Virus record (IMG/VR): IMGVR_UViG_3300017962_000105
Coordinates: 1-25,130 of that record
DNA length: 25,130 nucleotides
DNA from: a virus
Strand: one strand, 5' to 3'
A program made the position numbers and the translations under genes. The stretch's first letter is position 1; each line of letters begins with the position of its first letter. This document shows positions 7,647-25,130 of the stretch, in pieces. Under the pieces are notes generated by a model. That model did not search any database. It worked only from the letters and a program-made list of their open reading frames with translations, and was not told where the DNA came from.

Positions 7647-9542
7647 ATGACACAAGATAACACAAAAAACAATCAGGTTACTAGAACGCAAGAGGATCCA
7701 AATGCGGCTAAAAAATATGGATTTAAAGTTGGTAGAATTGTAAGTCATTTAGATCCTCATTATATGGGATCATTAAAAGTAACATTAATCAATTTTGATA
7801 CAGCTGGTAATGAATTAGAAGATGAAGGCGAAACTGTTGATGTTGAATATGCTCCAGTGTTTTATGGAACTACACCTGCAGAACACCTGACTCCTGGTGA
7901 TACTTATGCTGACACACAACAAAGTTATGGTTTTTGGGCTGTTCCTCCTGATGTAGGTTCTAGAGTTTTATGTGGGTTTGTTGATGGTGATATTAATAGA
8001 GGCTATTGGTTTGCATGTATACAAGATAGATACATGAACTTTATGGTACCAGGAGCGCAACCAGCAACAGAATACTATAAAGGCAAACCACCTGAAGGAG
8101 TAAAAGGTAAAAAATTACCAACAGCTGAGTATAATAAAAAGACAGATGGCGATAAACAAAAAGATCCAACAAAAAATAAAAAAGCACTTAATCTTAAATT
8201 TATAGAAAAATTAAAAGAAAGCGGATTAGCTGAAGATGACATACGGGGTATAACCAGCACAAGTGCAAGACGTGAAATACCTAGTGCAGTTTATGGAATA
8301 AGTAGTCCAGGTCCTTTGGATAAAGCAGGTCCTAGGGCGCAACGTGGTACAAAAAATGGTAAAGCAATTGTTCCAAAAAGCAGACTAGGCGGACAAAGTA
8401 TCACAATTGACGACGGTGATGATAAAAGATTACGTAAAGGTCCTGCAGACAGCGTTCCTTATGAATATATTGATCAAGAAGCTAGTGGTGGAGGTGATAA
8501 AGCTATACCTCATAATGAAATGGTGCGTTTAAGAACACGTACCGGTCATCAAATATTACTTCATAATAGTGAAGATTTAATTTATATTTCAAATGGCAGA
8601 GGTACTAGCTGGATTGAACTTACCAGTAATGGTAAAATTGATATCTATGCACAAGATAGCATAAGTGTACACAGCGAAAATGATATAAATTTTGTTGCTG
8701 ATAGAGATATTAATTTAGAAGCAGGTAGAAATATTAATACAAACGCAGTGCAAAATCAATATCACACAGTTGGTAAAAATATTGAAAACCGTGTAGGAGA
8801 AACATACAAAACTAGTGCTGCAAAAAACATTGAACTATATGCAGTTAAAGACAATTTTGTAACAGCAGGAGAAAGAAATTTATTTAACAGTTATCTGCAA
8901 ACATATATTACAGCACTCCAAGATATGCACGTTTTAACAGAAAAAAATCTGTTTAGTCATTCATTTGAAAACACACATATCACAGCAGACAAAAGTGTAT
9001 TCATTAATGCAAAAGAAGGTTTTGAAGGTATTTCTGGTAGCGGAAGTATGAAATTAAAAGTTGGCAGCAATATGGAAATACTTGTAGCTGAAACTACTAA
9101 AATTACCAGTGGAGGAAATTTAGAAACACTTACAACTGGTAATACAAATATAACTAGTAGCGGAAATAGTAATATAAACAGCAAAGGACATTATGAAACA
9201 GCTAATCCGATACATATGAACGGTCCTACAGCAACTAAAGCAACAGCAGCTACAGAAGCAACTGAGGCAACTGTCTCAGAAGAATCAGAAATAATTGAAG
9301 AGGTTGCATTAGCAGCACTATTTCCTGCAAGAGTTCCACAACATGAGCCGTGGAGCGGCCATGAAAATTGGGATCCTATGGCAGTTACACCAGATAAAAC
9401 AGAAGCAAAACCAGATAGCCAAGATATTCACATTCCTGTTGAAGACGAATCAAGGCTTGCAACAGATCGATCATTGATTAGTGACGTTTGGGACAGCGGA
9501 GAAGGTATCAAATATCCTGAAATTCCAAAACGTGACAGATAA
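7647..9542 (+). CDS. 5: Baseplate central spike gp5 without lysozyme domain
   Basis: The 631-residue spike has three parts. An OB-fold domain (about 23-130) includes GFKVGRIVSHLDPHYMG and GSRVLCGFVDGDINRGYW, which in T4 docks the spike to the hub. A charged linker (about 145-290) contains TSARREIPSAVYGISSPG (204-221). A beta-helix (about 293-520) has octad-like repeats such as DINFVADRDINLEAGRNINT and forms the membrane-puncturing needle. A C-terminal extension holds PARVPQHEPW (560-569). T4 gp5 has a lysozyme domain of about 170 residues between the OB fold and the needle; no such domain or its Glu-Asp-Thr catalytic set is recognisable here. The ATG follows AAGGA by six bases, nine bases after the previous stop. 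Confidence 0.85.
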   Translation: MTQDNTKNNQVTRTQEDPNAAKKYGFKVGRIVSHLDPHYMGSLKVTLINFDTAGNELEDEGETVDVEYAPVFYGTTPAEHLTPGDTYADTQQSYGFWAVPPDVGSRVLCGFVDGDINRGYWFACIQDRYMNFMVPGAQPATEYYKGKPPEGVKGKKLPTAEYNKKTDGDKQKDPTKNKKALNLKFIEKLKESGLAEDDIRGITSTSARREIPSAVYGISSPGPLDKAGPRAQRGTKNGKAIVPKSRLGGQSITIDDGDDKRLRKGPADSVPYEYIDQEASGGGDKAIPHNEMVRLRTRTGHQILLHNSEDLIYISNGRGTSWIELTSNGKIDIYAQDSISVHSENDINFVADRDINLEAGRNINTNAVQNQYHTVGKNIENRVGETYKTSAAKNIELYAVKDNFVTAGERNLFNSYLQTYITALQDMHVLTEKNLFSHSFENTHITADKSVFINAKEGFEGISGSGSMKLKVGSNMEILVAETTKITSGGNLETLTTGNTNITSSGNSNINSKGHYETANPIHMNGPTATKATAATEATEATVSEESEIIEEVALAALFPARVPQHEPWSGHENWDPMAVTPDKTEAKPDSQDIHIPVEDESRLATDRSLISDVWDSGEGIKYPEIPKRDR

Positions 9543-9551
9543 GGGGGCAAT

Positions 9552-11078
9552 ATGAGTATTGTAAGAGACAGTAATGGAAATCCTGTTAGAGATAGTAGGG
9601 GCAATCCAGTAAGAAGTACACCACAAGTATTTGGTGTAAACAACGGAAGTGTAAGCACTGCTCCAATTGGCAATCCTTTAAGAGCAATAAACAATACTCT
9701 AAACGATTTAGGTATAAATTTAGGAGGCCAAAATTTAGATTTTCGTAGTGCGCAAAATTTTAGTCGACAAGCAAGCCAAACTGTTGTGAATACTTTAGGA
9801 AATAACGGGTCTGTAAATATTAACGCAAATGGTTTATTTGCTAGAGTAACTAAAGATAATGCTAGTTTTGGGTTTGATAACGGTAATGCAGGAGTTATAA
9901 TACAAGATGGTCAACTAGGAGGATTTAGAGTTGGTAGTGCTGGTGTAGGATTTCAAGATGGAAAGATACAAGGAATAACAGCAGGTCCATTAAGTTTGGG
10001 TTTTGATAGTAACGGCAATATCAGTGGAGGTAATATTACATCAGGTCCCCTTAGTTTAAGTTTAACCGAAGGCGGTATAAGTGGAGGAATAAACACAGGC
10101 CCATTAAATTTTCAATTTGGACCTCAAGGTATTACTAGCGGATCATTTAATGCAGGCGGAATAAGTGCTAGTTTTGGTCCAGGCGGTTTCGGAATAGGCG
10201 GCAGTGTAGGTGGACTAAACTTTAGTATAGGCAGCGGCGGATTTAATTTAAGTCTAGGCGGAAGTTACTTTGGCTTCGGCGGCGGAGGTCCTCATACAGT
10301 TGGCGGAAATGGCACAGGCGCAATAGATAGATATCAAAAAGAGAATCCTACCCAAGTAACCAATCCTGGAGAAAGTGCAGTTGAAATAACAATTGATACA
10401 TTTTTAAAAGGTGCTGGAGGAGCATCTGGTTTAGGAGGATTAATATCAGGCTTATTAGGAACAGTAGCTGGCGGCGCTTTGCTTGCAAACTTGTCAGGTG
10501 ATTTGCTAAAAGCAGTTGGAGGTGCGTCTGGAGCACTAGGTGATGCTTTAGGAAAATTAGGTGGTGCAATTGGCGATGTTGTAGGTGATTTTGCTGGAGG
10601 TTTAGGTGATGCATTAAATGGAATACCAGGCATAGGACCTTCATTATCTGCATTTGGCCAAGGAATTGGAAATTTAGTTGGTGAAGTTGGTGATGCAATA
10701 CTTGATGCGCCTACACCTGTACAAGATATTATAGCAGGTGCGTTTGCTTCAAAGCTAACAGGACAACCTATAGTTTTGACAGCAAACGAAAGAGGACAGA
10801 TTACAGCAGGTTTACAGTTTGATTCACCTATAGGTTCTTTAGCATTGAATTTAGGAGAAGCAACACGAACTCTAATTAATGGTGCAACAGACAATAATAT
10901 TACAAATACTGGTAGTCTTCTAACACTGACTAGTGCATCGAATAATTTATCTTTTATTGCAAATAATAACATAACAAGCACTGGAAGAATTGGCACTAAT
11001 GTATCACGCAATATTGTATTAGATCGCAATGGTAATCCTGTAACAGATAGTAGTGGAAATGCAGTAACTAGTGGATAG
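9552..11078 (+). CDS. Glycine-rich repeat protein next to the gp5 spike, unknown function
   Basis: I do not recognise a named family. The 508-residue product has four visible parts. Tandem DSxGNPV motifs occupy residues 6-21. A beta-type repeat block at 123-238 holds six units of 19-20 residues, each a pair of short strands around Gly/Asn turns (for example TSGPLSLSLTEGGISGGIN). A Gly/Ala-rich hydrophobic block at 285-385 has many GxxxG spacings and few charges. A C-terminal part ends with another tandem DRNGNPVTDSSGNAV (491-505). It lies between gp5 and gp25 with GGGGG four bases before its ATG, so it is probably a virion protein of the hub or spike tip. A PAAR-like tip protein (as T4 gp5.4) or a membrane-active protein are possibilities; neither is shown. 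Confidence 0.8.
   Translation: MSIVRDSNGNPVRDSRGNPVRSTPQVFGVNNGSVSTAPIGNPLRAINNTLNDLGINLGGQNLDFRSAQNFSRQASQTVVNTLGNNGSVNINANGLFARVTKDNASFGFDNGNAGVIIQDGQLGGFRVGSAGVGFQDGKIQGITAGPLSLGFDSNGNISGGNITSGPLSLSLTEGGISGGINTGPLNFQFGPQGITSGSFNAGGISASFGPGGFGIGGSVGGLNFSIGSGGFNLSLGGSYFGFGGGGPHTVGGNGTGAIDRYQKENPTQVTNPGESAVEITIDTFLKGAGGASGLGGLISGLLGTVAGGALLANLSGDLLKAVGGASGALGDALGKLGGAIGDVVGDFAGGLGDALNGIPGIGPSLSAFGQGIGNLVGEVGDAILDAPTPVQDIIAGAFASKLTGQPIVLTANERGQITAGLQFDSPIGSLALNLGEATRTLINGATDNNITNTGSLLTLTSASNNLSFIANNNITSTGRIGTNVSRNIVLDRNGNPVTDSSGNAVTSG
9573..9611 (+). repeat. 39-base repeat, copy at the 5' end of the glycine-rich gene
   Basis: These 39 bases match 11028-11066 at 33 positions when compared by eye, without gaps and in the same codon frame. 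They encode the NGNPVRDSRGNPV motif. Confidence 0.7.
9918..10265 (+). repeat. Six tandem 19-20-residue beta repeats in the glycine-rich protein
   Basis: Units begin at residues 123, 143, 163, 182, 201 and 220. A typical unit is a Gly-Pro/Gly, then a strand of alternating small and large residues (LSLGF, LSLSL, LNFQF, ISASF, LNFSI), a Gly/Asn turn, and an Ile-Ser-Gly strand. The regular length suggests a beta-roll or solenoid stacked along an axis. Confidence 0.7.
11028..11066 (+). repeat. 39-base repeat, copy at the 3' end of the glycine-rich gene
   Basis: Direct-repeat partner of 9573-9611 with six mismatches. It encodes the NGNPVTDSSGNAV motif just before the stop codon, so the same motif closes both ends of the protein. 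Confidence 0.7.
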
Positions 11079-11089
11079 GTAAATACGTT

Positions 11090-11518
11090 ATGGTACAAAA
11101 AATATATAAAAATACTTCTGTAGGAACTAACACAAAACAATCACCTGTAAAAAGCAAATCTTACAGAGGAGTTAGTACTGTTAACCGTCCTAAAAAGTTT
11201 AAAATTTATGATTTAGAATTAATAAAACAAGATATATTAAATCATTTTCATATACGTCAAGGTGAAAAACTTGAAAATCCTACTTTTGGAACAATCATAT
11301 GGGATATACTTTTTGAACCATTAACTGATGATTTAAAATTAGCAGTTGAAAAAAATGTTACAGATATAATCAACTATGATCCTAGAGTAAGTGTTGATAA
11401 AGTTGCTATAGATAGTTACGAAAATGGCATACAAGTTGAAGTGCAACTTACATATCTTCCTTACAGTATAAGCGAACAACTTAAATTAAGATTTGATCAA
11501 AATGCAGGTTTAATTTAA
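11090..11518 (+). CDS. 25: Baseplate wedge subunit gp25
   Basis: The 142-residue product belongs to the GPW/gp25 family, which together with gp6 forms the core of the baseplate wedge and primes sheath assembly. An unstructured basic N-terminus (about 1-36) precedes the conserved domain, with DLELIKQDILNHFHIRQGEK (41-60), NPTFGTIIWDILFEPL (63-78) and a C-terminal LKLRFDQNAG. The length is close to T4 gp25 (132). The ATG is 11 bases after the stop of the glycine-rich gene; AGGT overlapping that stop codon is the only ribosome-binding candidate, at a 9-base spacing. The gene lies just ahead of gp6, its binding partner. Confidence 0.92.
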   Translation: MVQKIYKNTSVGTNTKQSPVKSKSYRGVSTVNRPKKFKIYDLELIKQDILNHFHIRQGEKLENPTFGTIIWDILFEPLTDDLKLAVEKNVTDIINYDPRVSVDKVAIDSYENGIQVEVQLTYLPYSISEQLKLRFDQNAGLI

Positions 11519-11571: not shown

Positions 11572-14500
11572 ATGGCTATAACTGATAGACAAAACAAATT
11601 GCTCAAAGCTGAAGATTGGAAGCGTATATATCAAACTTTCCGTAACGCTGATTTTAAGAGCTACGATTTTGACAATCTACGCAGAACAATGATTAACTAT
11701 CTGCGTGAAAACTATCCTGAAGATTTTAATGATTATATTGAAAGCAGTGAATATATTGCATTAATAGATTTGATTGCATTTTTAGGACAAAATATCAGCT
11801 ATCGTGTTGATCTTAATGCAAGAGATAACTTTATAGAACTTGCCGAACGTAGAGAAAGTGTGTTAAGACATGCACGTCTTTTAAGTTATAATCCAAAAAG
11901 AAACAAGCCTGCAAACGGTTTATTAAAAATTGTAAGCGTTAGCACAACAGAATCTATAATTGATAGTAATAATATTAATGTTGCTAACCAAAGTATACTT
12001 TGGAATGATAATACAAACTCTAATTGGCAAGAACAATTTACAAGAATTTTAAATGCTGCACTACCGGCACAAAATGGTATTGGTAAACCACTAAAAGATG
12101 GCAGCGTTAACGGTGTATCAACACAGCTTTATAGATTTAATGGAACAAGTAATACTGTTCCTGTTTATGAATTTTCAAAATCAATTGATAATAAAAAAGA
12201 AAGTTTTGAAGTTGTAAGCACCAATTTTGACAATAATAAAATATATGAGGAAGCGCCATTACCTGGTAATAACTTAGCATTTTTATATAGAGATAATGGC
12301 CAAGGCCCTGGTAGTACAAACAGTGGATATTTTTTACATTTTAGACAAGGTAAACTTTTAAACAACCAATTCCGTTTAGATGTAGCTGCACCGCATGAAA
12401 CCGTTGATGTAAACACAGCAAACATCAATAACGATGATGTTTGGCTTTACAAATTAAATACTGATGGCAACGAATCAGATTTATGGAATAAAGTTGATGC
12501 AGTAGAAGGCAACAACATTGTTTACAATAGTTTAGAAAAAAATATAACAAATATTTACACTGTGTTAACAAAAGTAAACGATACAGTAAGTCTTGTTTTC
12601 AGTGATGGTGTTTTTGGCACTATTCCAAAAGGTAATTTTAGAATTTATTATAGACAAAGTGCTAATCGTCCAATTAGAATTATTCCTGCAGAATTTACTG
12701 GTGTAAATGTAGTTGTACCTTATATTAGTAAAGCAGGAAAAGTAGAAAAGATTTCTTTAGTTCTTGAACTACAAAGCACTATTACAAATGCTACAACTAG
12801 CGAAACTAATGCTAGTATTAAACAAAATGCACCTTCAAATTATTATACACAAGATAGATTGATAACTGGTGAAGACTATAATGTTGGTCCTTTAAGTGTA
12901 AGCCAAGAAATTGTAAAAACCAAAAGTGTTAACCGAACTAGTAGTGGTGTTAGTAGATATTTTGATTTGAGAGATTCTACAGGAAAATATAGCAATACTA
13001 ATTTGTATGGCAACGACGGTTTAATATATAGAAATTATTTAAATGAAAAATTAAACTTTGAATTTGTTAATCAAACTGACATTGAATTTTTTGCTAGGAA
13101 TACAATTATTGAACTTATAAAAAATAGTAAAATGCGTAATTACTATTTAGATAAATTTCCTAGAAATGAAACTATTGCAAATTTTGGATTGACCTGGAAT
13201 AAAGAAACATTTGATTTAAATCGTTGTACTGGTAAATTTATTGATACTGATGGTATTACTGCTACTCTTGGTAGTTTTACAAGTGGACTTTTAACATATA
13301 TTAAACCTGGTGCTTATTTGAAATTTGAAGCACCTGTAGGATATTATTTCGATAGCACTGATAATAATAAACTTAAACAGGGCACTGCAACTGTTAAAGG
13401 TGCTATAACATATAAATGGATAAAAGTTATTAGTGTATTTGAAAATGGAACTACTAACGATCCAGATACTAATTTAGGTCCTGTAATTATTAATGATAAC
13501 ATTGAAACTGGCAGTAAGCTAGTAGAAATTATCCCAGTTCTTACAAAATCATTAGATGACGATACAATTAATTTGTTTGTAGAGCAGATGTTTGCTTTTA
13601 AACGTTTTGGATTACGTTATGATTTTGAAAAAAGCAGATGGGATATAATACTCGATAAAGATTTAAGTTCTAGCCAAGAATTTAGTTTAAGTAGTACCGG
13701 AGATATATCTGGAAGAAACTTAGATGGCAGTTGGCTAATATTGTTTGAAAACAACGGTGTATATTATACTGTTACATATAGAGGTTTAAAATACATATTC
13801 AGTAGTTTAGACGAAATACGTTTTTACTTTGATAAAGTTGATAAAATCTATGATAGCAGAACACAAAGAATTGTAAAAGATAAAATACAAATTTTAAATA
13901 TTAATAATAAACCTTTTGCTCTAGATTATTTTACAACTGACATTGATTGGCAAATAGTTTCTGATTATATTAATATTGACAATTATGTTGATAGCACTAA
14001 AATAGAAATTGACTTTTTTGATTCAGACGACGATGGTGTTGTAGATAATCCTGATATTTTTACTGATTTTGTTGCTATAGATAATAATAGTTACGTTTAT
14101 GAAAAGAAAATGTCTACCGGAGATACCGAAGCGTTTTATGCGATAGATAATGCTGTCGAAGGTATTATTGATACGTTTGAACTAGAACAAAACATCGGTG
14201 CTTTAAGTCAATATGATGAAGGTACAGTATTCTATTTTAGATCCACTGATATTTTTAAAAGGTTAGAAAGTAATAGACTAATTATTGATGATAGATATAG
14301 AGCGTATATCGGAAGAGATAATATTAAGTTTAGATATTATCATGCTGCTAATGAGAATCGCAGATTAGATCCAAGTGTATCAAATATGATTGATACATAT
14401 CTTTTAACTAGATCTTATGATACAGAATATAGGAAATGGATAGGCAATGAAATCAGTGATAAACCGTTGCCTCCAAGCAGTGATGAATTGTTTATCCAAT

Positions 14501-14997
14501 ATGGACAAGAAATTAATCAACGCAAAAGTATCAGTGACGAAGTAATATATGATCCTGTAAAATACAAAGCATTATTTGGTAGTAAAGCACCGGTTGATTT
14601 ACAAGCAAAAATTAAAATTGTAAAAAACAATGAACAAGTATTAAATGACAATGATATTAAGGCACGTGTAGTTTCTGCTATTAATACATTTTTTAGTTTA
14701 GAAAATTGGGACTTTGGAGAAACTTTTTATTTTAGTGAATTATCTACTTACATAGTTTCAACATTATCTCCTGATATTGCAAGTATAGTTTTAGTTCCAG
14801 TACAAGAAAATCAAAGTTTTGGAAGTTTATATGAAATCAAAGCAGAAAGTGATGAAATATTTGTAAGTGCAGCAACAGTTAATGACATTGAAATTATTGA
14901 TGCAATTACAGCAACACGCTTAAAAGCCACAGGCACAATTGTTACCGCAACTAACACACAAAACGTTAATATTCAAAGCAGTACATTAAGTGAATAA
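11572..14997 (+). CDS. 6: Baseplate wedge subunit gp6 (baseplate J-like), enlarged
   Basis: gp6 forms the inner ring of the baseplate wedge with gp25 and gp53 and dimerises to join neighbouring wedges. The N-terminus is the recognisable part: KAEDWKRIYQTFRNADFKSY (about 11-30), DLIAFLGQNISYRVDLNARD (67-86) and ERRESVLRHARLLSYNPKR (about 92-110). A C-terminal block beginning KARVVSAINTFFSLENWDFG (about 1027) ends in the baseplate-J-like fold. At 1,141 residues it is far longer than T4 gp6 (660). The added middle includes a DSDDDGVVDNPD loop (817-828) that looks like a calcium-binding EF-hand-type loop. The ATG is preceded by AAAGGAA and a late-type promoter. The stop TAA is followed at once by an in-frame TAG. 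Confidence 0.88.
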   Translation: MAITDRQNKLLKAEDWKRIYQTFRNADFKSYDFDNLRRTMINYLRENYPEDFNDYIESSEYIALIDLIAFLGQNISYRVDLNARDNFIELAERRESVLRHARLLSYNPKRNKPANGLLKIVSVSTTESIIDSNNINVANQSILWNDNTNSNWQEQFTRILNAALPAQNGIGKPLKDGSVNGVSTQLYRFNGTSNTVPVYEFSKSIDNKKESFEVVSTNFDNNKIYEEAPLPGNNLAFLYRDNGQGPGSTNSGYFLHFRQGKLLNNQFRLDVAAPHETVDVNTANINNDDVWLYKLNTDGNESDLWNKVDAVEGNNIVYNSLEKNITNIYTVLTKVNDTVSLVFSDGVFGTIPKGNFRIYYRQSANRPIRIIPAEFTGVNVVVPYISKAGKVEKISLVLELQSTITNATTSETNASIKQNAPSNYYTQDRLITGEDYNVGPLSVSQEIVKTKSVNRTSSGVSRYFDLRDSTGKYSNTNLYGNDGLIYRNYLNEKLNFEFVNQTDIEFFARNTIIELIKNSKMRNYYLDKFPRNETIANFGLTWNKETFDLNRCTGKFIDTDGITATLGSFTSGLLTYIKPGAYLKFEAPVGYYFDSTDNNKLKQGTATVKGAITYKWIKVISVFENGTTNDPDTNLGPVIINDNIETGSKLVEIIPVLTKSLDDDTINLFVEQMFAFKRFGLRYDFEKSRWDIILDKDLSSSQEFSLSSTGDISGRNLDGSWLILFENNGVYYTVTYRGLKYIFSSLDEIRFYFDKVDKIYDSRTQRIVKDKIQILNINNKPFALDYFTTDIDWQIVSDYINIDNYVDSTKIEIDFFDSDDDGVVDNPDIFTDFVAIDNNSYVYEKKMSTGDTEAFYAIDNAVEGIIDTFELEQNIGALSQYDEGTVFYFRSTDIFKRLESNRLIIDDRYRAYIGRDNIKFRYYHAANENRRLDPSVSNMIDTYLLTRSYDTEYRKWIGNEISDKPLPPSSDELFIQYGQEINQRKSISDEVIYDPVKYKALFGSKAPVDLQAKIKIVKNNEQVLNDNDIKARVVSAINTFFSLENWDFGETFYFSELSTYIVSTLSPDIASIVLVPVQENQSFGSLYEIKAESDEIFVSAATVNDIEIIDAITATRLKATGTIVTATNTQNVNIQSSTLSE
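14020..14055 (+). other. DxDxDG calcium-type loop in gp6
   Basis: Residues 817-828 of gp6 read DSDDDGVVDNPD, with acidic residues at loop positions 1, 3, 5, 9 and 12 and Gly at 6. This is the spacing of EF-hand, dockerin and thrombospondin type 3 calcium loops. No second loop was found beside it. Confidence 0.5.
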
Positions 14998-15014: not shown

Positions 15015-18000
15015 ATGGCATATAACGACCAGCAACAAGAATTTCCAGTTGGTGATAACAGGAAGAAGAGTAGCAAATTTTTACCTCGTTATTTTAGAAC
15101 AAGTACCAATGAAAAACTTACAGGTTCTACTATAGACCAACTTTTTTCAACAGGCGCAGTTGAAAAAATAAATGCATTTGTAGGTAGAAAAAACGCCAAA
15201 GCTAATATTAACAACAGCACTTATCTTACAGAAATAAACTCATTAAGACAAAATTATCAGTTAGATCCTAGTATCAATATCAAAGATGATTTGGATAATG
15301 TTGTATTTCATAAAGATTACATTGACTATATTGGTCAATTAAACAGTTTTTACAGTAATACAAAAAATCAAAGCAAATTAAATGAACAAGAAATATATTC
15401 TTGGAATCCAAATATTAACTTTGATATGTTTACAAATTTCCGTGAATACTATTGGTTACCAAATGGGCCTCAAACAGTTACAGTTACAGGTAATCAAAGA
15501 AACGTAGTAAGCACTTACAAAGTAAGTGTTGTAGATGACGGTGATAATTTTGCATATGTTTTTACTCCTGATAAACTTACTAGAAATCCACTACTTACAT
15601 TATACAAAGGACAAACATACAGATTTGAAATTAATACTCCGGGACATCCTTTTGCATTTGCAATAAGTAGAGAATTTTTACCTGGTTTAACATATGAAGA
15701 CAGTGTTAGAAATGAAAGCACACTTTATACAACTGGAATTACAACTACAAATGCAGATGTTGATGGATATGTAGAAAATGGTATTATAGAATTCACAATT
15801 GCAGATAACACACCAGATAGTTTATTTTATATTAGCAAAGAAGATATTAATACAAGTGGACTTCTTAATATAGCAAGTATTGAAGAAAACACAGTATTAG
15901 ATGTTGATAAAGAAATAGTAGGAAAAACAACATATACTACAGGGCAAGGCTGGAGTTTGAGCAACGGTATGAAAATTACTTTTGCAGGAAATATTACACC
16001 AGAAAAGTATTCTTCGGGTGAGTTTTATGTTGAAGGTGTTGGAAAAGAAATAGTACTTATACCACTGGAAGATTTAACAACTGTAGATTTATTATCAGAT
16101 GACGAGAATGTTCCATTTGATGTATATGGATTTGATAGATTGCCGTGGAGTACTACAGTAGGATATCCTGCGGTAAAAGATTACATTATTAGTAATAGAT
16201 CAAGTAAAGATAAAAATCCTTGGGCACGTTATAACAGATGGTTCCACATTAGTGTCATCAATGAAAGTGCAAATATTAACAAACAGGATTATATTTTACC
16301 TGAAAATAGTAGAGCAAAACGTCCTATCATTGAATTTGCTCCTGGTATTAAAATGTGGCATAATGGAACAGTATGCAAAACACCTATTGATTTAATTGAT
16401 GATTGGACAAAAGACGTATTTTCTATTATAGAGGGCAGAGAAGGTTATAATATTGATAATGTCGATGTTGTGGATGGAATGCGTATCTTGTTTACAGCTG
16501 ACACAGATCCTCAAGTTAAAAATAAAATTTACAAAGTAGAATTTATAAAGTTTCAAAACAAAACACAAATTTCTTTAGTAGAAGAGCCAGATGCTTTACC
16601 AAATGAAGATGAAATAGTTTTAGTTACTAGCGGAAAAATAAATTCTGGAAAACAGTATTTTTATACAAATGGATCGTGGAAAAAAGCACAAGAAAAAATC
16701 AGTGTAAATCAAACTCCGTTGTTTGATATGTTTGATGAAAATGGAATTTCTTATGGTGATGAATTCTATACAAGCAATGACTTTGTAGGAAACACAATCT
16801 TTTCATATAAGCAAGGGTCGGGATCAAACGATAGTGAATTAGGATTTCCAATAAGTTATAAAAATATTGATAATGTTGGTGATATAGTTTTTGAATTTAA
16901 TTTGTTAAAACAAGTTAACACTTATATTGTAGATGATGAAACAGTAAACTTACCGTCAAACAAAGGTTTCCTAAAAATCACAGACAGTTATAATGCTGAA
17001 GAAAGTTTTACAAATGCTTGGAAAAAGCACTATAAGAAAAGTTCTCAAGCAGTAATATTGGATTATCAAGGCAATGAGCAAACAAACAATTACGAAATCA
17101 ACTGTTTTGAAAAAAGCGAAAGATTAAATGATTTACAATTAAAAGTATTTACAAATCGTAAATTTTTGAAACTAGGCACAGATTATACCCTAACTGCAAA
17201 TGCTAGAGAAAATGTTGTTATTAATTTAGTAGAAGATATTGCTGAAAATGACAGACTTATAATCAAGTGTTATAGTGAATCTGAAAAAAATTCTAATGGT
17301 TATTATGAGACTGCATATAACCTTGAAAGAAATCCTAATAATTTGGATGTTACTGAATTTACTATTGGCGAAGTAAATGATCATGTTCAAACAATTGTTG
17401 AGAATATTGACAACTTTAACGGAATACATCCAGGTGTAGGAAATTTACGAGATTTAGGACCTATAGAAATTTATGGTGATAGATTTGTTACACATTCAGG
17501 ACCAATTGGATTACCGTTATATCATTTAACATCAAAAGAACACAATGTTGTAAACAGTATAAAACTGGCATTAAGAGAATATAGTAAATTCAAAAGAGAG
17601 TTTTTAAGAATTGCCACATATGATGGATATAATAATACAATTGTAAAACATGTTGATTATTTGTTAGGTCAGTTTGCAAGTAGCAAAACTCGTAGTGATG
17701 CGTTTTATGATAGTGATACTGTGCCATTTGGCGGAAAAAATATAATCGAATATACAGTTTTAGATGCAGGAAATCCTTATTATCCATTAACTACAGCGTT
17801 CGATATAACATCACTTAGCTCTAAAGCAGTTTTGATTTACAAAAACGGTGTACAATTATTATATGGTATTGATTATGAATTTACTACCGAAGGATTTGTA
17901 TATATTTTTACAGTTCAAAATGATGATAAAATTGAAATACACGAATATGAAACAACCGATGGTTGTTTTGTTCCGCCTACTCCTAGTAAGTTAGGACTAT

Positions 18001-21000
18001 ATCCATTATACGAACCAAAAATTTATGTTGATACTTCTTATAGTACTCCTACCAAAGTAGTTAGAGGACACGATGGAAGTAGAACTGTTGCATTTGATGA
18101 TTTTAGAGATGAATTGCTTTTAGAATTAGAGAAAAGAATCTTTAATAATGTTAAAAATAGATATGACGCAGAAATTTTTAATATCTATGATTTTGTACCA
18201 GGACGTTACAGAAACACTGGATTAAGTCAAAAAGATATAGATTTTATTCTTATCGCAGATTTTATAAATTGGACTAATGTTTCTCAGGTTTACGATTATC
18301 AAGAAAACAAATACAGTGATATAAATGATTCTTTTTCATACAATTATAAAGTTTCAAGCGACATTGATGGAAATAGATTAGAAGGCTTTTGGAGAGCTGT
18401 ATATAAAAATGCGTATGATACAGATACTCCTAATTTAACACCTTGGGAAATGTTAGGTTTTACTGTACAGCCAACTTGGTGGGAAAGTGTTTACGGTCCT
18501 GCGCCTTATACATTAGATAACATTCCATTATGGAAAGACTTAGAAGCAGGTATAATTAGAGAACCAAATAAACTAATTAGAAAAAATGTAAAATTTGCTC
18601 GTCCTAATCTTACAAAACAAATACCAGTTAACGAAAATGGGCAGTTGAGAAGTCCTTTTGAAACTGGATTTGCAAAAGATTTTAGTTTTGCAAATCAAAT
18701 TGGATACAGTCTTGAATTTGGTGATCAAGGACCTGCTGAAACAGCATGGCGTAGAAGTAGCGAATATCCATTTAGTTTAATTACAGCACTATTGTTACTT
18801 AGACCTGCACAAATTTTTGGTTTAACTTATGATAATAGTAAAATTAAGAAAAACTTAGCAGGAAATATAGTTTACAATGATGCCGGAATAAGAACTTCTA
18901 AAATTGATTTCGATAATCTTACTAGTGGATTAATAAATTATATCAAAGGATTAATCAATTTTAAAAGCATGTCTTTTGAAAAATATAAAGATGATGTTAA
19001 AAATATAAGTTTTAATTTAAGTTTTAGACTTGCTGGCTTTAGTGATAAAGAAAAAGTAAATCTTGTGTTAGACAGTAAAACTCCTAACAGCAGCGGCGAC
19101 ATATTTACGCCTCAAGAAAATTACAATTTATTTTTAAAAACTAGCAGTCCATATGATGTAGCTACTTATAGTGGTGTTGTAATAGAAAAAGTTGCAACTG
19201 GATATAATATAAGAGGTTACGATAGATATAATCCGCAATTTACATATTATGATGTTATACCATCAAATAATGATCCGTTTTTCACAGTAGGAGGTATAAG
19301 CGAAACATTTAGTAATTGGACAAGTGAAAAATTATATGTTGCAGGTGGAATTGTTAGATTTAGTGACGTTTACTACAGAGTTAACGAAACACACACAAGT
19401 GGAAATGATTTTGATAATACAAAATTTAGCAAGTTAGCAGAATTGCCAACTGTTGGTGGTAGAACAGCAAGATTTAGTAAAAGATTTTCAACTCAAAAAT
19501 CTACTCTCCAATATGGTACAGTTTTAAAAACTTATCAGCAAGTTGTAGATTTTCTTTTAGGATATGATAGATACTTACAAGAAATTGGATTTGAATTTGA
19601 CTACAATAATTCAAATTACGGAATTGTTGAAAACTTTAGACTAAGTGCAAAAGAATTCTTGTTTTGGACTACACAAAACTGGGGCGAAAATAGTGTAATA
19701 AGTTTATCACCTAGTGCAAACCAAATAAAATTTAAAAGAAATTTCTACTTACCCGACAGCTTGTATGATGGTATTTTTGACTATGAAATACTAGATCAAG
19801 ACGGTAAATTGCTTTCTAATGAATTTGTTAATTTGGTTAGAGATACAGACAATACTTTTAGTTTAGCAAGTAACGATGAAAATATAGGTGTTTACTTTGT
19901 AAGACTATTCTTAGTTCAAAAAGAACATTGTATTGTTATAGATAATAACACTGTTTTTGCTGATACTATCTATAATGAAACAAGTGGATATAGACAAGAG
20001 AGAATCAAAGTAGTTGGTTATAAAACAGCAGATTGGAGTGGTACATTAAATATTCCAGGATTTGTGTTTGACGAACCTAAAGCAACAAAATGGAAAAGTT
20101 ATGCTGATTACATAATTGGTGATGTAGTACAATATAAAGACAAATATTATACAGCTATATTAAGTCATACGAGTGCAGAATTCTTTAATGCTACAAATTG
20201 GACTATCTTAAGTGAAAAGCCAACTAATCAGCTAATACCAAACTTTGATTACCGTGCAAGTCAATTTGCTGATTTTTATGACCTAGATACAGATAATTTT
20301 GATACAGAACAACAAAGGTTAGCACAACATCTAATTGGATATCAAAAAAGAGAATACCTAAAAAATATAATCAACGATGATATTAGTCAATACAAATTCT
20401 ATCAAGGAATGATACAAGACAAAGGCACTAAAAATGTTTTAACAAAATTGTTTGACAAATTAAGTGCTGCTGATAAAGATAGCATTGAGTTTTTTGAAGA
20501 ATGGGCTATTAGAGCAGGACAATATGGTGCTACAGATAGTTTTGATGAGTTTGAAATTACTATAGATGAATCTAAATATAAGTTATCACCTCAACCCTTT
20601 GAATTAGTTAAATCTGTTGATAGAACAAGAACTGATTTTATCTATCAAGTTCCTACAACTGATATAGAAATTAAACCTTTAAATTATAATGAAACTATTT
20701 TTGAATACAAAGATTATGAAGAAATTACTAAAACAGCTGGATATGTAGCACCGGCACAAATAGACTTTATCACATCTGGTATAGATCAACTTCTTGGTTT
20801 TGATATAAATTTAGTTACACAAGGACAGTATGTTTGGGTAACTGAAGATGGACTAGATTGGAGTGTTTACGAATTTGTTAAAAAAGATTATCAAGTTGAA
20901 CGTATTGTAAAAACTCTTACAGGTTTTAAAGTTTTCTTTGATAAACAACACGATTTATCACCTAACGATGTTATAGGCTTGACAAATATTACTGATGAAC

Positions 21001-24000
21001 TTGACGGATTTAGACAAGTAATATATACTGGATATAAAGAAGTAGAATTTTACACAGAATCAGACATTGCTGAAGATGAAATTAATTTAGAAGATAGTAG
21101 CAAAGGTATTGTACTTAAAGTTGCATCGAGAAGATTTAATGATATTGATTCTTGTAATACAAATTTAACAGTTACAGACGTATCTGATGGTAAAAAAGTA
21201 TGGATTGACAATATTGGAAATAACAAATGGTCAGTATTAGAAAATAAATCTGTATTTGATGTTGAAGATATTATTGTAAATCCGCAAACAGGATTAAAAA
21301 CTAACTTTGCAGATGCTATTGCTGTAGATCAAACAAACACCAGACTTGCTATAGGTGATCCTAATAGCAATGGCAGAGTTATAGTTTATAGTCGTATTGG
21401 TGAAAACGGAGACTTTACATCTACTGAAAATTATCAAGCAGATACAGCAATAGTAGGAAACAACAGCAGATTTGGTGCAAGTTTAGCTATGTCACCAAAT
21501 GGAGACTACTTGTTTGTTGCAGCGCCAAATGCTGCAAACTTAAACACTAGATTCAAAGGTAATATTTTATCAGGCACCAGTTATAGTGCAGGTGATATTG
21601 TTAATGACCGAGGTACACTCTGGAGAGCTAAAGTAGATATTGATGGTAGTGATACAAGTACAATTAATAAACTTAGCCAAGATTGGGAAGTTGCGCCGTT
21701 AATCGAAGTTGATAATGATGGCAGTTCAACAGCATCAGTAAGTGGTGCAGTTTCAATTTATAAAAAAGCCGAAGTAGGAACAACATATGAATTACAAACC
21801 ACAATTGTAAGCCCAGACCCTACAGCCGCAGAGCAATTTGGCAGAATTGTAAAGTGTAGAAAAGACTTAGACGGTATTTTACGTTTGTATATTGCTAGTA
21901 ATGTAGCTGAAGGTAGAATATATTTCTTTGATAACGATACCGAAGATGGAAGTTTTAAATTCAGCAAAGATAACAATTATAGAGGTAGTTTTTCTGTTGC
22001 AGAAAATTATGTCGAAGGTGAAATAGTCTGGTATAATACTACTGGTGGTGCCGACGGAGATAGTAACTTATATCGTGCTACTAAAGATTTACCGGCTCAA
22101 ACATTTAATTCAGCATTTTGGGAAGTATTAGATGTTTATGTAGATTATAAAGGATATATTCCACCACAAATTAACTTGTTAAAAGAAGAAAGCGATAATC
22201 TTGGTGTTGCAGATGGATTTGACATTGCTACTGACTTTGATGTAAGTTTAGATGGCGAAGTAATTATAGTTAACGGCGAAGATGTTCTTAATACAAATAA
22301 AGTTAGCATATACAGAAGAGTTGATAACAGATACGCTTATTACGAAACTATTGAAACAAATGATATAGGCGAAGACTTTGGAAGAAATATTGCGGTCAGT
22401 GCAAACGGAAAAGCAATAGCAATATCGGCGATAAGAAATGATGACTTAGGAACCGATTATGGTGCTGTATATGTTTACAGATACAATGGAAACGAATATG
22501 CACTCACACAAACTCTTTATCCGCCAACTGGCAATGATGGAGAATTGTTTGGTATTGATTTAAACTTCAGCGATGAAAACTTAATCATTGCTAGTGCAAA
22601 TGGATTTAGATCTAATCCAACATTGTTTGATCAAACGTTAATCCGTGTTGAAGATACAACATTTGACAATAACACAACCAAGTTCTTTAATAAATTTGAA
22701 AATGGCGGAACTATATACATTTTCCAAAATTTCAATAACAACTATTTGTATGCTGAAGAATTGGATTGGAACTACAACACAAAAGGCAGTTCGACTCCAA
22801 TCTTATTAAGTAATTTTAATCACATTTATATAGGGTATCCTAGATTAGAATACACAGCAGATTACGGTGTTGTTGTTAATTTAAAAAGAGATAAAACAAA
22901 ATATACTTGGAACAAATTATCGGAACAAATTGACACACCAGATATTAATAAAATTAAACGTGCATTCTTGTTTGATAAAACCAACAATGATATAATTACA
23001 TTCCTTGATGTTGTGGATCCGATCCAAGGAAAAATAGCAGGTCCAGCAGAAGAAGCTATTGATTTAAAACTTGCATTTGATCCTGCAAGTTATTCTGTAG
23101 ATGTAACCAATAACAACAACCAAGATTTTTGGGCTAGTGAATTTGTAGGTACATATTGGTGGAATACTGGATCTACTAAGTGGTATAATCCTTATCAAGG
23201 TAATGCAGAAAACCAAACAAGTTTTTGGAATAAATTAATTCCTAATAGTACTACAGAAGTTTACGAATGGGTAGAGTCAGATTACTTGCCAAGTGAATGG
23301 GACGAACTTGCAGATACAAACGACGGTATCATAGAAGGCATCAGCGGTATTAGTAAATATGGAGATTTTAAATACAGTGTTGGTCGTAAATTTAATAGTG
23401 TAACAGAAACATTTGAAACAAAGTATTATTTCTGGGTGCAAAACAATAAGCTTCGTACAAGCGAAAACAAAAAAATTAGTTCTTATGATGCACAACAATT
23501 AATAGTAGATCCTCAAGGATCAGGATATAGATTCATGAGTGCCTTAAGCACTGATAAATTTGCATTGCATAACGTAGGTTCTTTAATAAAGGATAAAGAT
23601 GTTGCTTTACACATTGATGTTTACAAAGGTGAAATAAACGATAGAAATATTCACACTGAATATAAACTTTTAAGTGAAGGATTAGCAGGAAGTAATCCAC
23701 CAGAAACATTTATTAATAAATGGATTGATAGCTTAGTAGGTTATGATGTTAATAACAGACCAGTACCTGATCCTGATTTAGGCGAAACTAAAAAATACGG
23801 CATTGAAAATCGTCCAAGACAAGGTTTATTTAGGAACAATTTAGAAGCACTGAAACAAACTTTAGAAAGAACAAACTATATTTTAAGACAACAAATTATT
23901 ACTGATTTTAAAGATATAGACGACTTGTTCAAAGAAGATCAAAAACCTAGATTGTTAGAAGGCTTATTTGATGTTGAAGTTGATACAGTTGATGATATAA

Positions 24001-25130
24001 CAACAATAGGGGTAGCAAATACTAAACAAGCAACACTGACTCCTGTATTAGAAAATGGTAGACTTGTAAGTGTTATTGTAGATGACAGAGGGTATGGTTA
24101 CAAATCTGCACCCCAAGTAACTGTTACAGGAACAGGCACAGATGCAGAAGTACAAGTAACTATCGATAATGTTGGCAGAATTAGTTCTGTGAAAATTGTT
24201 AATCAGGGTAATAATTATTCTTCTATGAACTTGTCAGTCCGTCCATTTAGTTTATTAATAAATTCTGATGCAGAACTTAATGGTAAATGGGCAATTTATG
24301 ATTATGATTATAATGGCAACTTTGAAAGAGTAAAATATCAAAGGTGGACTGTTCCAAGTTACTGGAACTACAGCGATTGGTATGAAACAGGATATGATGC
24401 AAATACAGCTATTGATTACTTAATAGATGGTAGCTATCAGTTAGACAGTATTAACGATACAATTGGCGATGTTGTTAAAATCAAAGATGTTGGAACAGGT
24501 GGATGGTTGTTGTTACAAAAAATAGATGTCCAACCAGAAGTTGACTACACTGTAAACTACAAAACTATAGGACGTCAAAATGGTACTATACAGTTTAGTA
24601 GTAGATTGTATCAAAATACAAATTTTGGTTTTGATAAAATCGGATTTGATAATTTAGTGTACGATACTGAACCAGTTAATGAAAGACGTATTATATTAGA
24701 AACACTAAGAGATAAAATTCTAATAGATGATTTAGAATTAAAATTCAATGAAATACTGTTTACAGGTATTAGATATGCATTGTATGAGCAACAAACAGTG
24801 GATTGGATATTTAAAACTAGCTTCTTAACAGCAAAACACAATGTAGGCGAATTAGATCAAAGAATCAACTTTAAATCAGATAATCTTGATAGTTACAAAG
24901 ATTTTATTAGTGAAGTTAAACCTTACAGTAGTAAAATTAGAGAATACATCAGCGCATATGATAAAGTAGAAAATTCTCAAACTATGATAAGTGATTTTGA
25001 TTTACCTCCTAGATATGATCAGATTCAAAACAAAATTGTTACCGAAACAGTAAAATTCTACAATGAAAGAATTGTAGGAGATAGAGAATTTATTGATACA
25101 TATCCTCAAAAGAATTGGCTTGAAAATTAC
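15015..25130 (+). CDS. Giant baseplate wedge-associated protein at the gp7 position, partial (no stop in window)
   Basis: An open frame runs from ATG 15015 to the last base, at least 3,372 codons; the 3' end lies outside the window. AGAGGAA lies about nine bases before the ATG, just after the gp6 stops. Visible parts: a conserved N-terminus (KFLPRYFRTSTNEKLTGST, about 21-39; FREYYWLPNGPQ, about 141-152); a cupredoxin-like domain (about 165-290); a large region with NPWARYNRWFH (about 402) and a PWEMLGF...PTWWESVYGP block; four CBM5/12-like modules near 1435, 1693, 2184 and 2322; FG-GAP-like propeller blades (about 2097-2579); a GxGY module (about 3008-3078); and a conserved segment with VDWIFKTSF and GELDQR near the end. 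No signal peptide or membrane span was seen. The order after gp6 points to gp7, the wedge initiator (1,032 residues in T4), but the T4 match is positional. It may serve as a peripheral wedge and receptor-binding protein. Confidence 0.85.
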   Translation, partial: MAYNDQQQEFPVGDNRKKSSKFLPRYFRTSTNEKLTGSTIDQLFSTGAVEKINAFVGRKNAKANINNSTYLTEINSLRQNYQLDPSINIKDDLDNVVFHKDYIDYIGQLNSFYSNTKNQSKLNEQEIYSWNPNINFDMFTNFREYYWLPNGPQTVTVTGNQRNVVSTYKVSVVDDGDNFAYVFTPDKLTRNPLLTLYKGQTYRFEINTPGHPFAFAISREFLPGLTYEDSVRNESTLYTTGITTTNADVDGYVENGIIEFTIADNTPDSLFYISKEDINTSGLLNIASIEENTVLDVDKEIVGKTTYTTGQGWSLSNGMKITFAGNITPEKYSSGEFYVEGVGKEIVLIPLEDLTTVDLLSDDENVPFDVYGFDRLPWSTTVGYPAVKDYIISNRSSKDKNPWARYNRWFHISVINESANINKQDYILPENSRAKRPIIEFAPGIKMWHNGTVCKTPIDLIDDWTKDVFSIIEGREGYNIDNVDVVDGMRILFTADTDPQVKNKIYKVEFIKFQNKTQISLVEEPDALPNEDEIVLVTSGKINSGKQYFYTNGSWKKAQEKISVNQTPLFDMFDENGISYGDEFYTSNDFVGNTIFSYKQGSGSNDSELGFPISYKNIDNVGDIVFEFNLLKQVNTYIVDDETVNLPSNKGFLKITDSYNAEESFTNAWKKHYKKSSQAVILDYQGNEQTNNYEINCFEKSERLNDLQLKVFTNRKFLKLGTDYTLTANARENVVINLVEDIAENDRLIIKCYSESEKNSNGYYETAYNLERNPNNLDVTEFTIGEVNDHVQTIVENIDNFNGIHPGVGNLRDLGPIEIYGDRFVTHSGPIGLPLYHLTSKEHNVVNSIKLALREYSKFKREFLRIATYDGYNNTIVKHVDYLLGQFASSKTRSDAFYDSDTVPFGGKNIIEYTVLDAGNPYYPLTTAFDITSLSSKAVLIYKNGVQLLYGIDYEFTTEGFVYIFTVQNDDKIEIHEYETTDGCFVPPTPSKLGLYPLYEPKIYVDTSYSTPTKVVRGHDGSRTVAFDDFRDELLLELEKRIFNNVKNRYDAEIFNIYDFVPGRYRNTGLSQKDIDFILIADFINWTNVSQVYDYQENKYSDINDSFSYNYKVSSDIDGNRLEGFWRAVYKNAYDTDTPNLTPWEMLGFTVQPTWWESVYGPAPYTLDNIPLWKDLEAGIIREPNKLIRKNVKFARPNLTKQIPVNENGQLRSPFETGFAKDFSFANQIGYSLEFGDQGPAETAWRRSSEYPFSLITALLLLRPAQIFGLTYDNSKIKKNLAGNIVYNDAGIRTSKIDFDNLTSGLINYIKGLINFKSMSFEKYKDDVKNISFNLSFRLAGFSDKEKVNLVLDSKTPNSSGDIFTPQENYNLFLKTSSPYDVATYSGVVIEKVATGYNIRGYDRYNPQFTYYDVIPSNNDPFFTVGGISETFSNWTSEKLYVAGGIVRFSDVYYRVNETHTSGNDFDNTKFSKLAELPTVGGRTARFSKRFSTQKSTLQYGTVLKTYQQVVDFLLGYDRYLQEIGFEFDYNNSNYGIVENFRLSAKEFLFWTTQNWGENSVISLSPSANQIKFKRNFYLPDSLYDGIFDYEILDQDGKLLSNEFVNLVRDTDNTFSLASNDENIGVYFVRLFLVQKEHCIVIDNNTVFADTIYNETSGYRQERIKVVGYKTADWSGTLNIPGFVFDEPKATKWKSYADYIIGDVVQYKDKYYTAILSHTSAEFFNATNWTILSEKPTNQLIPNFDYRASQFADFYDLDTDNFDTEQQRLAQHLIGYQKREYLKNIINDDISQYKFYQGMIQDKGTKNVLTKLFDKLSAADKDSIEFFEEWAIRAGQYGATDSFDEFEITIDESKYKLSPQPFELVKSVDRTRTDFIYQVPTTDIEIKPLNYNETIFEYKDYEEITKTAGYVAPAQIDFITSGIDQLLGFDINLVTQGQYVWVTEDGLDWSVYEFVKKDYQVERIVKTLTGFKVFFDKQHDLSPNDVIGLTNITDELDGFRQVIYTGYKEVEFYTESDIAEDEINLEDSSKGIVLKVASRRFNDIDSCNTNLTVTDVSDGKKVWIDNIGNNKWSVLENKSVFDVEDIIVNPQTGLKTNFADAIAVDQTNTRLAIGDPNSNGRVIVYSRIGENGDFTSTENYQADTAIVGNNSRFGASLAMSPNGDYLFVAAPNAANLNTRFKGNILSGTSYSAGDIVNDRGTLWRAKVDIDGSDTSTINKLSQDWEVAPLIEVDNDGSSTASVSGAVSIYKKAEVGTTYELQTTIVSPDPTAAEQFGRIVKCRKDLDGILRLYIASNVAEGRIYFFDNDTEDGSFKFSKDNNYRGSFSVAENYVEGEIVWYNTTGGADGDSNLYRATKDLPAQTFNSAFWEVLDVYVDYKGYIPPQINLLKEESDNLGVADGFDIATDFDVSLDGEVIIVNGEDVLNTNKVSIYRRVDNRYAYYETIETNDIGEDFGRNIAVSANGKAIAISAIRNDDLGTDYGAVYVYRYNGNEYALTQTLYPPTGNDGELFGIDLNFSDENLIIASANGFRSNPTLFDQTLIRVEDTTFDNNTTKFFNKFENGGTIYIFQNFNNNYLYAEELDWNYNTKGSSTPILLSNFNHIYIGYPRLEYTADYGVVVNLKRDKTKYTWNKLSEQIDTPDINKIKRAFLFDKTNNDIITFLDVVDPIQGKIAGPAEEAIDLKLAFDPASYSVDVTNNNNQDFWASEFVGTYWWNTGSTKWYNPYQGNAENQTSFWNKLIPNSTTEVYEWVESDYLPSEWDELADTNDGIIEGISGISKYGDFKYSVGRKFNSVTETFETKYYFWVQNNKLRTSENKKISSYDAQQLIVDPQGSGYRFMSALSTDKFALHNVGSLIKDKDVALHIDVYKGEINDRNIHTEYKLLSEGLAGSNPPETFINKWIDSLVGYDVNNRPVPDPDLGETKKYGIENRPRQGLFRNNLEALKQTLERTNYILRQQIITDFKDIDDLFKEDQKPRLLEGLFDVEVDTVDDITTIGVANTKQATLTPVLENGRLVSVIVDDRGYGYKSAPQVTVTGTGTDAEVQVTIDNVGRISSVKIVNQGNNYSSMNLSVRPFSLLINSDAELNGKWAIYDYDYNGNFERVKYQRWTVPSYWNYSDWYETGYDANTAIDYLIDGSYQLDSINDTIGDVVKIKDVGTGGWLLLQKIDVQPEVDYTVNYKTIGRQNGTIQFSSRLYQNTNFGFDKIGFDNLVYDTEPVNERRIILETLRDKILIDDLELKFNEILFTGIRYALYEQQTVDWIFKTSFLTAKHNVGELDQRINFKSDNLDSYKDFISEVKPYSSKIREYISAYDKVENSQTMISDFDLPPRYDQIQNKIVTETVKFYNERIVGDREFIDTYPQKNWLENY
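15507..15885 (+). other. Cupredoxin-like domain of the giant protein
   Basis: Residues about 165-290 show the pattern of cupredoxin-like modules seen in marine phage structural proteins: PLLTLYKGQTYRFEINTPGH (192-211), then an ENG..EFTI strand and LFYIS (270-274). His211 is retained. The position where copper-binding members have Cys is Ile273 and the expected following His and Met are absent, so copper binding is unlikely. Confidence 0.55.
19317..19440 (+). other. CBM5/12-like module, copy 1
   Basis: Residues 1435-1476 follow the family pattern: an initial Trp, then Y-x-x-G-x-x-V (YVAGGIV), an aromatic pair (VYYRV), and HTSGNDF. The closing Trp is replaced by Phe (TKFSKL). Confidence 0.5.
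20091..20215 (+). other. CBM5/12-like module, copy 2
   Basis: Residues 1693-1734 are the best copy: WKSYADYIIGDVVQYKDKYY, then HTSAEFF and a closing NWTIL. The spacing of Trp, YxxGDxVxY, YY and the final Trp fits the chitin-binding type 3 pattern. Confidence 0.6.
21564..21702 (+). other. CBM5/12-like module, copy 3 (inside the propeller)
   Basis: Residues about 2184-2230 read SYSAGDIVNDRGTLWRAKV, then a Asp/Ser-rich loop and a closing DWEVAP. The YxxGDxV core and final Trp are kept, with a longer loop than copy 2. Confidence 0.5.
21978..22134 (+). other. CBM5/12-like module, copy 4 (inside the propeller)
   Basis: Residues about 2322-2373 read NYVEGEIVWYN, LYRATKD, then FNSAFWEVLD. The core YxxGxxVxY, the second aromatic and the closing FW are kept. 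Confidence 0.55.
24036..24246 (+). other. GxGY beta module near the end of the window
   Basis: Residues about 3008-3078 hold two copies of a strand pattern: GRLVSVIVDDRGYGYKSAPQ with VTVTGTGTDAEV, then GRISSVKIVNQGNNYSSMNL. The form G-x-V-x-x-V-x-V-x-x-x-G-x-x-Y recurs in phage and marine surface proteins; its function is not known to me. Confidence 0.5.

Follow-up and report, generated by a model that had tools for sequence, protein, structure and literature searches.

The gene that directly follows the gp5-like spike gene in an uncultured T4-like phage encodes a protein, here called X, whose family is without annotation in the libraries searched. This family is fixed beside the spike throughout one clade of uncultured large phages, and it bears a tag that is otherwise carried by the spike chain itself. 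We propose, with about even confidence, that X belongs to the central spike or hub of the virion as one half of a split spike, presenting a helical domain, and we regard it as a testable candidate for envelope crossing by such phages.

The X gene and its family

The window, that is the whole stretch of 25,130 bases analysed, is the record of an uncultured T4-like phage described as large and marine (virus record IMGVR_UViG_3300017962_000105, positions 1 to 25,130). Its minus strand holds gp55 together with genes labelled gp46/gp47-like on the basis of their adjacency to gp55, after the annotation in relatives. The plus strand encodes, in order, a 269-aa structural protein, gp53, a 706-aa hub-like protein, gp5, X, gp25, gp6 and a very long open frame. 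The features to which we refer are the following.

7647..9542, plus strand: gp5-like spike without a hydrolase domain (profile matches)
9342..9365, plus strand: HEPWSGHE, a conserved motif after the gp5 beta-helix
9462..9482, plus strand: gp5 tail peptide TDRSLIS, replacing a DTFxK ending (TDR[TS]xx[NS] count)
9552..11078, plus strand: X, 508-aa probable spike-partner protein (ORF, 61 distinct relatives, purifying selection)
9561..9587, plus strand: VRDSNGNPV motif, X residues 4-12 (pattern [IVL]xDxxGxP[VI])
9837..10265, plus strand: beta-repeat region, X residues about 96-238, in 18-20-residue units (self-similarity)
10254..10412, plus strand: most conserved stretch of X, residues 235-287, from the repeat end through the linker to DTFLKG (identity comparison)
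10395..10412, plus strand: DTFLKG tag, X residues 282-287 (in 61 of 61 X; carried by the gp5 tail in phages that lack X)
10431..10976, plus strand: predicted all-helical, Gly/Ala-rich amphipathic domain, X residues 294-475 (AF2 model and periodicity)
11016..11042, plus strand: VLDRNGNPV motif, C-terminal, X residues 489-497 (same pattern as at residues 4-12)
11090..11518, plus strand: gp25-like baseplate wedge protein (profile matches)
11572..14997, plus strand: gp6-like baseplate wedge protein (profile match)

The X open reading frame (9552-11078, plus strand, ATG start) was confirmed. A homologue search, suggested by the sequence-only reading, uncovered a single-copy family: 61 distinct full-length relatives were collected in IMG/VR, all from uncultured T4-like phages, and each of the nine X records that were searched contains a single copy. 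The gene is directly followed by gp25 in every one of the 61 and directly preceded by gp5 in 59, the remaining two lying at a contig end, and six further loci found later show the same gp5-X-gp25 order. The members are 387-535 aa long, their identity to the window X falling to 19-27% in some, and the core common to the family comprises residues about 264-475, in which a D[TS]F[LI][KQR] tag is followed by an all-helical domain. X is clearly under purifying selection, although its dN/dS of 0.13-0.14 against its two nearest relatives is above that of the neighbouring genes (0.04-0.11). X, and its helical domain especially, evolves faster than the structural proteins next to it. In a gp25+gp6 tree of 99 loci, built by a quick method, all 35 X rows fall on one side of a single branch with support 97; the locus joining next to them, L098, has a long gp5 and a CHAP peptidase in the gp5-gp25 slot.

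X yielded no match in Pfam, PHROGs, NCBIfam, PDB sequences or, by tblastn, INPHARED phages. Its best PDB sequence match was apolipoprotein A-IV at E 0.03, which we set aside as an amphipathic-helix resemblance. Foldseek, run on the full model with PDB and BFVD as targets and on the core with PDB, returned nothing under E 0.07, and a single pattern found no relatives of X in 84,980 bacterial and archaeal genomes. A match to a known non-structural family, which the sequence-only reading had named as evidence against itself, did not appear in Pfam, PHROGs, NCBIfam, PDB sequences or the Foldseek searches.

In PHROGs, several relatives weakly matched tape-measure families, many and different ones (E 2e-2 to 2e-5), and these matches are what would speak for X being a short tape-measure-like protein within the tube. 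The window protein had no match to tape-measure profiles and is in good part beta, and the scatter of the relatives' matches over differing families is as expected from composition bias. Tape measures scale at about 1.5 A per residue, and proteins of 387-535 aa, in which no more than about 180 residues are predicted to be helical, are too short for the tape measure of a myovirus, all of which makes this reading highly unlikely.

The closest cultured relatives of gp5 and gp6 come from large phages, among them PA5oct, RaK2, PBECO4 and Atu_ph07. In virions of phAPEC6, proteins were detected that fit, by order and size, the 269-aa protein, gp53, the hub, gp5, gp6 and the giant protein (PMC7247149), the correspondence to the window genes being set by these two properties. 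The annotation of PA5oct marks the products of the corresponding genes as detected by MS in the virion, gp53 excepted. X might also be an assembly chaperone or another non-virion protein, lying in the operon by chance. The homologues of most surrounding genes are virion proteins in cultured relatives, and beta-stalk repeats and a gp5 tag would be unusual in a chaperone, so that we give this reading very little credence.

Two further observations concern the ends of the window. The open frame at 15015-25130 exceeds 3,372 aa and continues past the window end, and giant virion proteins are found at the same place in PA5oct and phAPEC6. A small ORF at 6-431 on the minus strand, with a VYLITN...YVGKK stretch, resembles a GIY-YIG nuclease and may encode one.

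The DTFxK tag and the gp5-gp25 slot

All 61 X proteins carry the D[TS]F[LI][KQR] tag just ahead of the helical domain, and its D and F are invariant even in the most divergent members. In X-less phages a DTFxK tag of this type is found on the C-terminal tail of gp5, where it often forms the terminal residues (for example ...VDTFRKGS), while in several X-less gp5s the chain runs on behind it for 150-300 further residues. As several X-less gp5s continue past the tag in this way, the helical domain of X occupies the place of the extra gp5 region. With a relaxed pattern the tag was detected on gp5 in 53 of 64 X-less rows, not all X-less gp5s bearing a recognisable one, compared to 0 of 35 X rows; a looser pattern used earlier had flagged one X-row gp5, at an unrelated site within the beta-helix. 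The gp5 of X phages instead carries TDR[TS]xx[NS] near its end (28/35 X rows, 0/64 X-less rows). Outside gp5 and X the tag pattern is rare, occurring in 18 of 3,514 unassigned ORFs (about 0.5%), mostly gp46/gp47-like genes with the pattern at internal sites. The tag is a short one, and beyond it sequence comparison of X with gp5 tails detected no homology; a few X members ranked above shuffles, with a best E of 1.4.

The tree places the gain of X and the loss of the tag from gp5 on one branch, as one event kept since. That gp5 and X exchanged the tag more than once was rejected, as the tree requires a single change, and since X arose once, the correlation between tag and X does not amount to repeated independent evidence.

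In other phages the gp5-gp25 slot is either empty or holds a CHAP peptidase (L098), a PAAR protein (L118) or both (L132, record G013), and many X-less phages have no gene and no detectable hydrolase there. XacN1 has a protein annotated as an M23 peptidase in this slot, and PBECO4 and RaK2 have a protein of 162 aa whose annotation is tail lysozyme. PAAR matches were found in records G011 and G013, and the nine X-bearing records, which are fragments of 51-98 kb, gave no match to PAAR, Phage_lysozyme, CHAP or GH19. As side observations, genes for CHAP-like peptidases of 252-256 aa and for PAAR-like proteins of 92-103 aa are seen in the X-less slots of L087, L098, L101, L118 and L132, a Pfam match being shown for those of L098, L118 and the L132 record. 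In L121, L103 and L123 the C-terminal part of gp5 appears to have a GH19-like hydrolase domain fused to it (PF00182), the match being weak in the last.

Three properties point to the spike as the site of X: its invariant placement between gp5 and gp25, a tag that it has in common with gp5 tails and that gp5 lacks where X is present, and a slot that in related phages holds PAAR tips or wall hydrolases. The spike itself had been described as lysozyme-free, and the window gp5 indeed has Pfam matches to OB, DUF2345, DUF3540 and gp5-trimer families only. X resembles the T4 gp5/gp5.4 (PAAR) complex in that its gene adjoins a gp5-type spike, of which it is a probable partner, and in that related phages hold a PAAR protein in its slot (L118, by Pfam). 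Unlike gp5.4, it is about five times larger, is built of beta repeats and a helical part, and lacks the PAAR motif (PF05488; no Pfam match). With the tail-associated hydrolases (CHAP, M23, GH19, lysozyme) X shares the gene position, or the C-terminal place where these are fused to gp5, yet it matches no catalytic domain family of murein hydrolases.

Beta repeats, helical domain and membrane character

Residues 123-238 of X had been described as six regular beta repeats of 19-20 residues. The repeats are real, and they are built on an 18-residue unit into which extra residues are occasionally inserted: the equivalent region of L034 repeats cleanly every 18 residues (z = 12.7 at lag 18), with a half period of 9, and the self-similarity of the window X peaks at lags 18, 19 and 37 (z 2-4). 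Such repeats are confined to the window genus and L031-L034; elsewhere in the family the N-terminal part is a different one. With units of about 18 residues, two short strands and Gly/Pro turns, the repeats are like those of trimeric beta-repeat shafts (triple beta-spiral, triple beta-helix); unlike these, they have no PDB sequence match and an AF2 monomer fails to resolve their fold. Residues 235-287 are 94-98% identical within the genus and 60% identical to L034, compared to 41% overall. An N-terminal W/F-x-V-x-x-G-x-V motif was considered as common to other virion proteins and rejected, as 26 of 119 X rows have it, along with 3 unrelated ORFs. Among four loci compared, covering three subclades, the [IVL]xDxxGxP[VI] pattern was present at both ends of X and in X alone; a DxNGNPV-type motif at either end is as if the two ends might pair or bind one partner.

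The C-terminal half was predicted with confidence. AF2 with 34 sequences modelled the core as all-helical (pLDDT 78, pTM 0.73), and in the full model residues 294-475 are helical with pLDDT mostly 75-89. Hydrophobic residues (L/I/V/F) are enriched at spacings of 4, 7 and 11 (z 3.9, 3.1, 2.4) and depleted at 2, 5 and 6, a pattern that reads as an amphipathic alpha-helix, and helix periodicity is found family-wide (z 5-8 in most members). The low-charge Gly/Ala/Leu block recognised earlier at residues 285-385 was borne out (31% G, 14% A, 18% L, 3 K/R, 8 D/E). The glycine zipper seen in its GxxxG spacings was not, 11 being observed against 8.95 expected from composition (p = 0.23; z mostly 0-2 across the family), and an excess of such motifs was rejected.

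The block had also been singled out as a candidate for membrane insertion. It contains one segment of membrane-helix grade, the only one in the window X (residues 294-312, Kyte-Doolittle 1.74), which is not kept across the family: the maximum 19-residue hydropathy ranges over 1.03-1.74, most other subgroups lying at 1.1-1.5, and exceeds 1.6 only in the window genus and in L208, there at the N-terminus. Hence a hydropathy scan across members did not find conserved membrane-spanning segments as a family property. Of the suggestion that X is a spike-tip or ejected membrane-active protein, the link to the spike stands by placement, tag and slot, while X matches no membrane-active family and its transmembrane character is not family-wide. 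Sequence does not discriminate between a spike tip, a hub and an ejected protein.

X could conceivably be ejected as a glycine-zipper pore former that makes a DNA channel in the inner membrane. Its Gly/Ala-rich amphipathic helices and the segment 294-312 of the window genus would suit this role, and the T6SS effector Tde1 requires a GxxxG motif for crossing the target inner membrane (PMC10240207). We nevertheless consider it quite unlikely, as GxxxG stays at composition level, most relatives are devoid of a transmembrane-grade segment, and pore formers give no significant fold match. Tde1 (PMC10240207), which has a glycine-zipper N-terminus and whose Gly-rich helical segment is delivered through a contractile injection machine, may serve as a working analogy and as no more than that; unlike it, X has no toxin domain match and no GxxxG surplus.

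The helical Gly/Ala-rich domain is compatible with membrane insertion and equally with an ordinary helical baseplate domain. X may be purely structural, a trimeric beta stalk with a helical bundle that plugs or braces the junction of hub and wedge without contacting the host membrane. The position between gp5 and gp25, the compact and confident helical model and the low transmembrane character of most relatives agree with such a role, whereas the faster evolution of X, notably of its helical domain, compared to its structural neighbours and the envelope-acting or tip proteins with which relatives fill the slot argue against it; we judge it possible, on the unlikely side.

A proposed split spike and its gp5 chain

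In the split spike that we favour, the gp5 chain of the clade ancestor would have lost its C-terminal DTFxK(G/C) tag plus any domain behind it, and the tag would now be borne by a separate protein, X, with the helical domain directly behind. The tag, together with the highly conserved stretch preceding it, is probably what docks X on the spike or hub, the beta-repeat stalk possibly being an additional docking part in the window subgroup. X would then enter the envelope along with the tube, and there its amphipathic domain may either open onto the membrane or simply cover and guide the spike tip. The data show the family, its gene order, the tag in every X and its absence from gp5 of X phages, and the helical domain; we infer the virion location, docking, delivery and membrane contact, and an action of X on envelope or membrane is plausible and unproven. 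The spike tip of T4 showed no strong liposome binding, and the passage of its tube through the inner membrane is unexplained (PMC7600766).

A further-reaching version, which we advance as rather doubtful, is that of a two-gene piercing spike in which the amphipathic helical domain stands in for both a PAAR tip and a murein hydrolase and itself acts on the host membrane, DTFxK being a conserved, undescribed docking tag of T4-like spikes. What is offered for testing is a defined domain and a defined peptide, and as DTFxK is present on gp5 tails of many uncultured phages, it is testable in any of them.

The gp5 chain shows one more conserved element. Behind its beta-helix, RxPxHEPWxxHENxxP is conserved in many of these phages (for example the window, L115, L041 and L083), and its two spaced histidines might bind a metal at the tip; at the HEPW position the PAAR-bearing L118 has AEPW and L113 has VEPW.
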